The position numbers and the translations under genes were made by a program. A DNA stretch of 32,852 nt from contig PEAB01000041.1 in assembly GCA_002753395.1 (NCBI GenBank), positions 1-32,852 on the forward strand, in the 5' to 3' direction. Numbering within the stretch: the stretch's first letter is position 1; each line of letters opens with the position of its first letter. This document shows positions 9,199 through 11,262 of the stretch, piece by piece. Source of the DNA: Nitrospirae bacterium MYbinv3. GTDB taxonomy: Bacteria > Nitrospirota > Thermodesulfovibrionia > Thermodesulfovibrionales > Magnetobacteriaceae. The notes beneath the pieces are model-generated. The model was given only the letters and a program-made list of their open reading frames with translations, ran no database searches and was not told where the DNA came from.

Positions 9199-11262
9199 CT
9201 ATGTAGACCTCCTCTTTCTGAGGCGATGGGCCATCATTAACGCAGACAGCGTTATAAGTGTAATTGTGCCCCATTCGTTGATTGTAGGTACGTTCGTTAC
9301 TGTCTGGACAAACGCCACAGGGTCTACTATTGTGCCGTTGACTGTCAGGTCGTTGTCTCCGAGCTGCCCGTCTGTTAGGTGGAGGATAACGGTCTTCTGC
9401 CCCTGGTTAACGGTTATTTCGCCACAGGGTTTGTTGCTGACGGCGTTATTGCAGGTGAAGTCGTACCAGTGAGAGGTGGCATTAGTGGCTGTCGGCCCGT
9501 ATTTGAAGACCCTGTTAATGTTTACTGTCTGAGGCAGGGTAAAGATAACCTGAGTGTCGATGTTTGGCTGCACGTTCTGGACCGTGAAGGTTAGCGTGCC
9601 TAAGGGCAGGCGGCCGCTATTGCCAGTTGAGAGATTCAATCCGCTTACGTCAGGAGTTGCTGTAGAGCTAACGCTTGATAGGGTTGCAGGTAAGGTGGTT
9701 GAGATGTTGATGGTAACTGGCTTTCCCTTGTCGTCAGTGACCACCAATGGAGTTGGGGTTGACGTTGGCGTGGGTGTAGGAGTCGGGGTAGGAGTCGGAG
9801 TAGCCGTAGGGGTAGGAGTAGCGGTAGGTGTGGGCGTTGGCGTTGGAGTAGCCGTGGGTGTCGGGGTTGGTGTAGGCGTAGGCGTCAGATTGAACGTTGC
9901 CGTAATGTTCTTTGCCGCCGACATTGCTACCGTGCATGTTGAGCTTGTCCCAGAGCAGTCACCGCTCCAGCCAGTGAAGGTTGAATCAGGATCAGCCGTT
10001 GCGGTCAGGATTACGGATGCGCCAGTGGGATATGGAAAGGAACACGTTGAACCGCAGTTTATCTCAGAAAATGTGCTTGTTACAGTACCTGAGCCTGTGC
10101 CAGACTTAGAAATGACAAGATTGACCAAAGTACCAACCGGTCCAGAACGAACGGGCCAAACATAGCCGTTGAAGGACTTAGCTTCGGGGTAGTTGTAGCC
10201 AACGTTCATGTTGACGATCCACGCGTTGGACGTATAGCCAGCGCCAGTAGTCGACGACCAGTAGTGGAGGTTGCCAGACTGCACATTGGCAAATGGATGA
10301 CCGAATTGAAGCGGAGGGTTATACATTTCAAGATCAAGCAGGCTAAACAGCTCTTTTTTATTCGGAAGGCTCCAATCACTATAGCCAAGGTACCCTGCAC
10401 TGTTTAAGCATACTACATAATTTAGCGCGCCTTGCCAAGACATGCTGCCTCCTGTACATGACCCCACAGTGGGGGTACTGGCGTCTTTGCTCCATATGAG
10501 CTGTGTAAGGTTGTCTGTTACGGTATTGTTGCCGTTGTCTGTAAATCTCGGATTTGGCCAGGCCACACCCTTCTGCAACGCGCCGTCGTCACCAGCGGCA
10601 TAACTGGTCGTCTGTCCGGTTGCCCAAATAAACGAATTACCAAAAGCCCCAGATTGTCCAGAACGAACGGGCCAAACATAGAGGTTGAACGTTTTTTCGT
10701 ACTCGTTGCCGGCGAAGCCAACGCCCATATAGACGACCCACGCGCTGGACGTATAGCCAGCGCCAGTAGTCGACGACCAGTAGTAGGCGCCATACAGCAC
10801 ATTGGCAAAACCCTGTGAGTTGAGGCATGTTTCTTGATTTCCTTGGCCAGCGTTGAAAAGGCTCACCAGCTCGTTGATGTTCGGCAGCCGCCAGTCGGTG
10901 TAACCGTATGTACCGGCCCCGCTGTTCATCGTGGCAACATAGTCCAGCGCCCCTTGCCATGTAAAACCACCGGCAAGGTTGGCGTCTTTGGTCCACATTA
11001 GGCCGGTGAGGTTGTCGGTCATCGTTTGGTCGCCGTTGTCTGTGAAGCGCGGATTCGGCCATGCCACGCCCCTTTGCAATGCGCCATCGTCCCGCTGCGG
11101 GGTGTTATTATCGTAGCTCGTTGTCTGACCCGTCTGCGGCAGGCTCACGGTACCGGCGTTCACCGCTATGAACAGGAGCATCAGCACTGAAGCTGTTACG
11201 CAGAACACCACCAGCGACTTGTTTACTAAGTTGCTGCTTACTAAAATCCTTCGCTTTTTCAT
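9199..11262 (-). CDS. Exported protein: two Lcl/DUF1566 domains, beta repeat, TP-rich stalk, IPTL-CTERM tail
   Basis: 687 residues, start ATG behind GAGGAGGATT. An N-terminal signal segment (about 20-37) precedes two DUF1566/Lcl C-terminal-like domains (about 65-205 and 225-375). Each contains WPNPRFTDNG, DNLT, WQGAL, WSLPN/WRLPN, YYWSSTTGAGYTS and YVWPVRSG. Next come a bacterial InlB-type repeat (GSGTVTS...CSFPYPTGASVILTATAD...GWSGDC), a Thr-Pro linker of about 45 residues, a beta domain, and an IPTL-CTERM sorting tail (VPTINEWGTITLITLSALM then RLRKRR). This implies an exosortase-like export or anchoring route and surface display. The last about 125 bp of each DUF1566 domain (10657-10784 and 10141-10265) are much more alike in DNA than the rest, with adenine-biased differences. 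That is how variable regions of diversity-generating retroelements look. No reverse transcriptase is in the window. Confidence 0.85.
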   Translation of the reverse strand: MKKRRILVSSNLVNKSLVVFCVTASVLMLLFIAVNAGTVSLPQTGQTTSYDNNTPQRDDGALQRGVAWPNPRFTDNGDQTMTDNLTGLMWTKDANLAGGFTWQGALDYVATMNSGAGTYGYTDWRLPNINELVSLFNAGQGNQETCLNSQGFANVLYGAYYWSSTTGAGYTSSAWVVYMGVGFAGNEYEKTFNLYVWPVRSGQSGAFGNSFIWATGQTTSYAAGDDGALQKGVAWPNPRFTDNGNNTVTDNLTQLIWSKDASTPTVGSCTGGSMSWQGALNYVVCLNSAGYLGYSDWSLPNKKELFSLLDLEMYNPPLQFGHPFANVQSGNLHYWSSTTGAGYTSNAWIVNMNVGYNYPEAKSFNGYVWPVRSGPVGTLVNLVISKSGTGSGTVTSTFSEINCGSTCSFPYPTGASVILTATADPDSTFTGWSGDCSGTSSTCTVAMSAAKNITATFNLTPTPTPTPTPTATPTPTPTPTATPTPTATPTPTPTPTPTPTSTPTPLVVTDDKGKPVTINISTTLPATLSSVSSTATPDVSGLNLSTGNSGRLPLGTLTFTVQNVQPNIDTQVIFTLPQTVNINRVFKYGPTATNATSHWYDFTCNNAVSNKPCGEITVNQGQKTVILHLTDGQLGDNDLTVNGTIVDPVAFVQTVTNVPTINEWGTITLITLSALMMAHRLRKRRST
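9751..9885 (-). repeat. Tandem Thr-Pro coding repeat
   Basis: Short degenerate tandem repeats (GTAGGAGTCGGGGTAGGAGT type on the plus strand) encode the TPTPTPTATPTP stalk. Such DNA is prone to length change by slippage in multiples of six bases. Confidence 0.8.
10141..10265 (-). repeat. Variable-region-like segment 2 (DUF1566 domain 2 end)
   Basis: Shares a 47-bp block with one mismatch (10219-10265) and a 25-bp end (10141-10165) with segment 1. Between them the coding strand is rich in AAC codons (AWIVNMNVGYNY). See the finding on retroelement-like diversification. Confidence 0.6.
10657..10784 (-). repeat. Variable-region-like segment 1 (DUF1566 domain 1 end)
   Basis: Partner of 10141-10265. 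Positions where segment 2 has A on the coding strand hold G, T or C here (protein AWVVYMGVGFAG). Confidence 0.6.

Follow-up and report, generated by a model that had tools for sequence, protein, structure and literature searches.

In an uncultured member of the magnetotactic Nitrospirota, two segments of a gene for a predicted surface protein with Lcl_C (DUF1566) domains are very probably remote variable regions (VRs) targeted by a diversity-generating retroelement (DGR) that belongs to the genus Candidatus Magnetobacterium. The gene lies in the window, i.e. the whole stretch of 32,852 nucleotides that was analysed. The assignment draws on a family of VRs in the same genome, a template in a sister species, adenine-specific change, a reverse transcriptase (RT) and an Avd gene linked to the template, and a surface tail recognised by homology. 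In the proposed mechanism, an RT-Avd complex would make copies of an AAC-rich template RNA in which the errors fall on adenines, the cDNA would replace the VR on the upstream side of a constant 3' block (IMH), and exposed loops of the C-type-lectin-like Lcl_C domains would be rewritten in a protein anchored through IPTL-CTERM and exosortase. In this way a surface protein that is exosortase-anchored and has two internal VRs would be tied to programmed hypervariation. The analysis also documents, for uncultured magnetotactic Nitrospirota, a DGR whose many targets are dispersed, and a search of the open-access literature for a DGR in magnetotactic Nitrospirota found no paper with both terms.

Architecture of the target gene

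The target gene with its two internal VRs occupies positions 9199-11262 on the minus strand and comprises 687 codons. Starting at the N-terminus, the 687-aa protein consists of a signal-peptide-like start, two Lcl_C/DUF1566 domains and a divergent InlB B-repeat, followed by a TP-rich linker, a choice-of-anchor U domain and, as its tail, IPTL-CTERM. The profile search gave 201 bits over two stretches for Lcl_C/DUF1566 (PF07603), above the gathering score. The tail passed the IPTL-CTERM cut-off (TIGR04174) marginally, with 21.5 bits against 20.5, as did an exosortase (PF09721) of the same genome, with 26.1 against 25.7. Since the tail passes its cut-off and an exosortase gene is present in the genome, display of the protein on the cell surface via the IPTL-CTERM/exosortase route can fairly be inferred, in agreement with the exosortase-type tail that had been proposed in the initial annotation of this DNA, both scores being marginal. 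C-terminal to the last VR lie 313 residues, the IPTL-CTERM anchor included, and the displayed protein may bind extracellular ligands. Sequences of the window and of the loci, 25 in all, went into a structure model of the second Lcl_C domain, which bears the region termed VRb below (pLDDT 87.6). The model's best fold match was the C-terminal domain of Legionella pneumophila Lcl (8q4e), which belongs to the same Pfam domain at 24% sequence identity, and C-type lectins came second.

Two variable regions within one gene

VRa lies in the first DUF1566 domain (codons 153-202; 10657-10806, minus strand) and VRb in the second (codons 325-374; 10141-10290, minus strand), both with adenine-biased changes relative to the template. 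The two domain bodies have diverged, as described initially, to 68.5% identity at the DNA level. Within them, a 47-bp block of VRa at 10738-10784 (minus strand) pairs at an offset of 519 with 10219-10265 (minus strand) in VRb, with one mismatch (46/47; P ~4e-7 given the background identity), and the last 25 bp of the two VRs (10657-10681 and 10141-10165, both minus strand) are identical (25/25; P ~8e-5 on the same basis). As the domain bodies are merely 68.5% identical, these shared islands exceed the background. The 25-bp ends form an IMH-like constant block, TATGTTTGGCCCGTTCGTTCTGGA in VRa, which recurs as identical DNA in most of the other VRs of the genome. Between the two blocks, the six codon pairs listed in the initial annotation were recovered, with eight of nine differences falling on A of the second segment; the lone non-A difference is a C to T change in the pair AAC/TAT. 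Likewise real are the difference of 3 nt in length and the non-A changes reported between the segments. Because the second segment is itself mutated, comparison with a real template is the better test.

The VR family and its targets

With the VRb segment as query, 12 matches, itself included, were obtained in the window's genome. Their alignment yielded 11 VR-like DUF1566 (Lcl_C) segments on eight contigs, two of them in the window gene, which share a constant 3' end; the twelfth match (C10:5456-5486) is a 31-bp remnant of that end. Differences among the VRs concentrate on codons resembling mutated AAC, and the nine VRs outside the window gene are of two background types. At least eight target genes of this family are dispersed over the genome.

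A TIR domain is fused to a VR-bearing DUF1566 domain at L020:3540-4436 (minus strand), L077:5265-6132 (minus strand) and L079:2827-3763 (plus strand). In the copy of this fusion from Candidatus Magnetobacterium casense, 19/19 changes fall on template adenines, which suggests that a likely cytosolic protein of defence or signalling is also diversified. In addition, the end of a Fic-like frame (L020:5452-5865, minus strand) and the start of another DUF1566-like frame (L075:2556-2807, plus strand) are each fused in frame to some 30 bp from the 3' end of the VR; these fusions would represent either remnants of VR ends or sites where such ends landed.

Template, Avd and reverse transcriptase in related genomes

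An AAC-rich template was deduced from the VRs of the window's genome and then used as a search query. It matched two genomes of the same genus, G001 (M. casense MYR-1; 93%) and G002 (92%). The M. casense match is flanked by an Avd-like gene and by an RT whose best PDB match is 8ub7, a 328-aa reverse transcriptase (E 3.6e-40), the DGR enzyme of BPP-1. The sequence VGNLTSQ is present in the M. casense RTs and in a 5'-truncated RT of the window's genome. GxxxSQ, in the form (I/V/L)GxxxSQ, marks DGR RTs (PMC3521204), and its occurrence in domain 4, together with the 8ub7 match, assigns the enzyme by sequence to the DGR clade. The DGR reading of the initial annotation thus finds its template, Avd and DGR-clade RT in the sister species. 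Two template-RT cassettes are present in G008, a genome from another genus of the family, and M. casense likewise has a second cassette.

An Avd-like frame stands directly upstream of the template in 5/5 cassettes examined. Avd of the related genomes gave E-values of 7e-8 (bAvd-like) and 3e-8 (NF033474), both below the curated cut-offs, and comparison with the PDB returned no informative match. G002 retains VR, Avd and template without an RT, the junction lying within a contig; at this locus (L072:3487-3810) the RT gene is absent after an intact VR-Avd-template and the VRs are still almost purely A-changed, so that the absence would reflect recent loss or a population variant.

In three of the four RT-bearing cassettes (L071:7628-9415, minus strand, L090 and L092; M. 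casense and G008) the template reads stop-free in frame into the RT, the exception being G008 C67, and the N-terminus of the template-RT frame even gives an Lcl_C match. The DGR RT at L071:7628-9415 (minus strand) carries a C-terminal MutS domain I at residues 490-561 (28.8 bits, cut-off 20.6), and MutS-domain-I-like sequence is also visible in the G008 RTs. Matches in other phyla left this part of the RT uncovered, and a literature search on DGR plus MutS, judged by title, found no such fusion.

Adenine specificity of the changes

Measured against their own template, the changes in the M. casense VRs fall on A in 22/23, 19/19, 17/18 and 17/19 cases, and those in the G002 VRs, against G002's own template, in 16/17 and 21/22. 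The 11 VRs of the window's genome were scored against the M. casense template as a stand-in from the sister species. VRb is changed at 16/39 A and 8/78 non-A positions (P=1.9e-4), VRa at 24/39 and 16/78 (P=1.5e-5), and the other nine VRs, with non-A columns set from other VRs of the same genome, show an A bias with P between 3e-6 and 1e-9, all these P values assuming independent columns in VRs of common ancestry. Pairing with a template repeat whose adenines take most of the mismatches, the feature by which a DGR target is recognised, was observed with the sister-species template. Over all 11 VRs, 36/39 A columns are variable vs 25/79 non-A columns. Changes affect 46% of the A cells at the first two codon positions vs about 6% of the non-A cells there, and 7% of non-A third positions; codon position does not account for the A bias.

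The conserved DUF1566 motifs YWSS and WPVR yield islands of identity, and one might take the two segments for parts of paralogous DUF1566 domains that diverged in the ordinary way, their conserved motif codons mimicking a DGR pattern. However, change is limited to those first and second codon positions at which an independent template has A, with third positions nearly fixed; the domain body upstream, represented by a control of 150 bp of DUF1566 sequence before each VR, lacks an A bias (odds ratios ~1); and the template predicted from the VRs was later found beside an RT. The A-specific changes, seen in the M. casense VRs and in 11 VRs of the window's genome, refute this explanation, which is exceedingly improbable.

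State of the element in the window's genome

The draft assembly of the window's genome is 96.6% complete. A search of this draft with the template query found no template matching the window VRs, and a full-length matching RT is absent from it. Contig C57 carries a matching RT at 88% DNA identity, which is 5'-truncated to the C-terminal two thirds or so; Avd and the N-terminal third of the RT are missing from the contig, and a template beside the truncated RT was sought there and not found. The final 119 bp of contig C83 recur without any difference at C57:4081-4199, next to the RT, and C83 carries an orthologue of the target gene that adjoins the cassette in M. casense. Since C83 breaks off within the expected cassette, at the place that the cassette occupies in M. 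casense, an assembly gap at this genome's own cassette is likely, deletion or loss being possible. The initial annotation had proposed to look for a template and a DGR-clade RT in the same genome and had regarded their absence from the complete genome as refutation. In the draft the template is indeed missing and the RT truncated, which nominally matches that refutation; the assembly is incomplete precisely at the expected cassette, and both parts are present in M. casense.

A second, complete DGR was found in the same genome on C78 (L016:1191-4865), composed of a trypsin-FGE target with a C-terminal VR, an HRDC protein, Avd, RT and template, with 28/39 mismatches at template A when flanks are counted in. 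It was rejected as the template source for the window VRs, being of another family (trypsin-FGE) to which the DUF1566 VRs are dissimilar. A third RT, on C53 (L002:1144-2349, minus strand), lies beside an aconitase-like gene, has PQGPISSA in place of GxxxSQ and is not DGR-like.

Age and templating of the window VRs

The initial annotation had suspected two templates or later mutation, and the window VRs are indeed richer in non-A changes than the others (8 of 78 in VRb and 16 in VRa vs 1-4 in the other nine). This 2-16-fold excess suggests that they may be retired. The 47-bp block of VRa further contains the private states TCGACTACTGGCGCTGGCTAT, partly at non-A sites, which are common to VRa and VRb and absent from the other nine VRs. 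On the strength of these shared non-A states, the window VRs probably form an older or separately templated subset, having either a template of their own or a history of mutual sequence exchange with less refreshing. Orthologues of the same architecture occur in M. casense (C22, with an internal stop or frame break) and in G003 (C200); their A bias is weak or absent and their 3' ends are altered, which suggests that the window gene is an old target whose use varies by species.

It is possible, if rather unlikely, that a second, diverged template already bearing TCGACTACTGGCGCTGGCTAT serves both window VRs. Non-A states common to these two alone among the VRs of the genome would be accounted for, and a close form of the states in a G003 VR (C9:6496-6522), the two template-RT cassettes each of M. 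casense and G008, and the split of the remaining VRs into two background types point the same way; yet no template carrying the states was found in six genomes of the family, and VR-VR exchange within the gene would account for the shared block too. Similarly doubtful is the view that the segments are fossil targets, made by an ancestral DGR whose template and RT have since been lost or broken, and now changing by point mutation and VR-VR exchange. Such a history would fit the C57 RT without its N-terminal third, the unassembled template and linked Avd, the loss of the RT in G002 at a junction inside a contig, and the non-A changes of the window VRs. Against it, the 119 bp shared by C83 and C57 place the assembly break where the M. 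casense cassette sits, and several other VRs of the genome are nearly pure in A changes (1/78 non-A), which argues for recent activity in the lineage. Remote VRs of a Magnetobacterium DGR remain the preferred reading, with homing presumably continuing at the window gene.

A candidate direct-repeat mark after the VRs

About 10 nt after most VR ends lie three ATTTGG-like words with a period of 8-9 nt. The element after VRa, TTTTGGTAATTCGTTTATTTGG (10624-10645, minus strand), agrees with three ATTTGG words at 15/18 positions (P ~9e-4 per 60-nt segment); that after VRb, CTTTGGTCAATCTTGTCATTTC (10109-10130, minus strand), is degenerate, its best register in 60 nt being 13/18 (P ~6e-3). The element occurs after stop codons, in frame as FGNSAIW and in frame as LVNLVIS, and the triple repeat is present in 0/5 templates. 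The strict pattern (at most two mismatches) occurs six times in the whole genome of the window, five times (four loci) directly after VRs, the sixth being a chance occurrence within an IstB-like gene; other phyla showed just scattered sites at chance level in their DGR loci. Some fresh VRs (C2a, L079:3760) lack the element, so that it is not strictly required, and its presence may reflect shared descent of the flanking DNA instead of a function.

BPP-1 requires a hairpin/cruciform after its IMH (PMC3240598). No such structure was found about 4-34 bp after the VRs of this family, and, barring three hairpins with T-runs (terminators), no stem-loop after the VRs rose above shuffles. The homing mark of the Magnetobacteriaceae could tentatively be, with a chance put somewhat below even, this direct repeat of three ATTTGG words, spaced at 8-9 nt and starting some 10 nt beyond the IMH, with no stem-loop; it would be maintained at the DNA level after stops or in two frames, and it is absent from templates. 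The repeat would then be a candidate for DGR target recognition without a BPP-1-type stem-loop and could allow VRs inside long genes such as the window gene, beyond gene ends; knowledge of a target-site mark would also aid the prediction of remote VRs in other genomes.

Comparison with known systems

DUF1566 is the commonest Pfam domain reported for DGR targets, and 11.3% of multi-VR DGRs in a survey have several VRs in one ORF (PMC6642488); remote and TIR-fused targets are also known (PMC7517822, PMC10907252). As these features have been reported, the mechanism itself is known; new are the group of bacteria that hosts the element, the surface protein of exosortase type with its internal VRs in tandem, the fusion of RT and MutS domain I, and the candidate direct-repeat element. 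The DGR of Stenotrophomonas sp. SKA14 (PMC6642488) has in common with the present one an RT, a template repeat, A-specific VR changes, DUF1566 targets and several targets per element, whereas internal VRs, at least eight dispersed target genes, an RT with MutS domain I and a direct-repeat element instead of a stem-loop after the VR set the present system apart. The remote-target DGRs known from cyanobacteria (PMC7517822) and the DGRs of conflict systems in multicellular bacteria (PMC10907252) likewise have remote targets that are dispersed, several DGRs in a genome, VR-bearing CLec domains in tandem and TIR-fused targets. Cyanobacterial DGR targets are mostly cytosolic and their VRs nearly always 3'-terminal (PMC7517822), in contrast to the large proportion of targets with surface-protein architecture and the internal VRs seen here. 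The order Avd-template-RT, a constant 3' IMH block and a template end unlike the VR end (IMH*) are shared with BPP-1 of the Bordetella phage (PMC3240598). A BPP-1-like context preference in AAC codons (A-to-T vs A-to-G/C) was considered and rejected, the two positions being not significantly different. A zinc-ribbon-like protein with two DUF1566 VRs was observed at L021:4526-5758 (plus strand); its neighbours in the row are vWA-like, PP2C-like and kinase-like genes, an arrangement that resembles the conflict-system neighbourhoods of PMC10907252.
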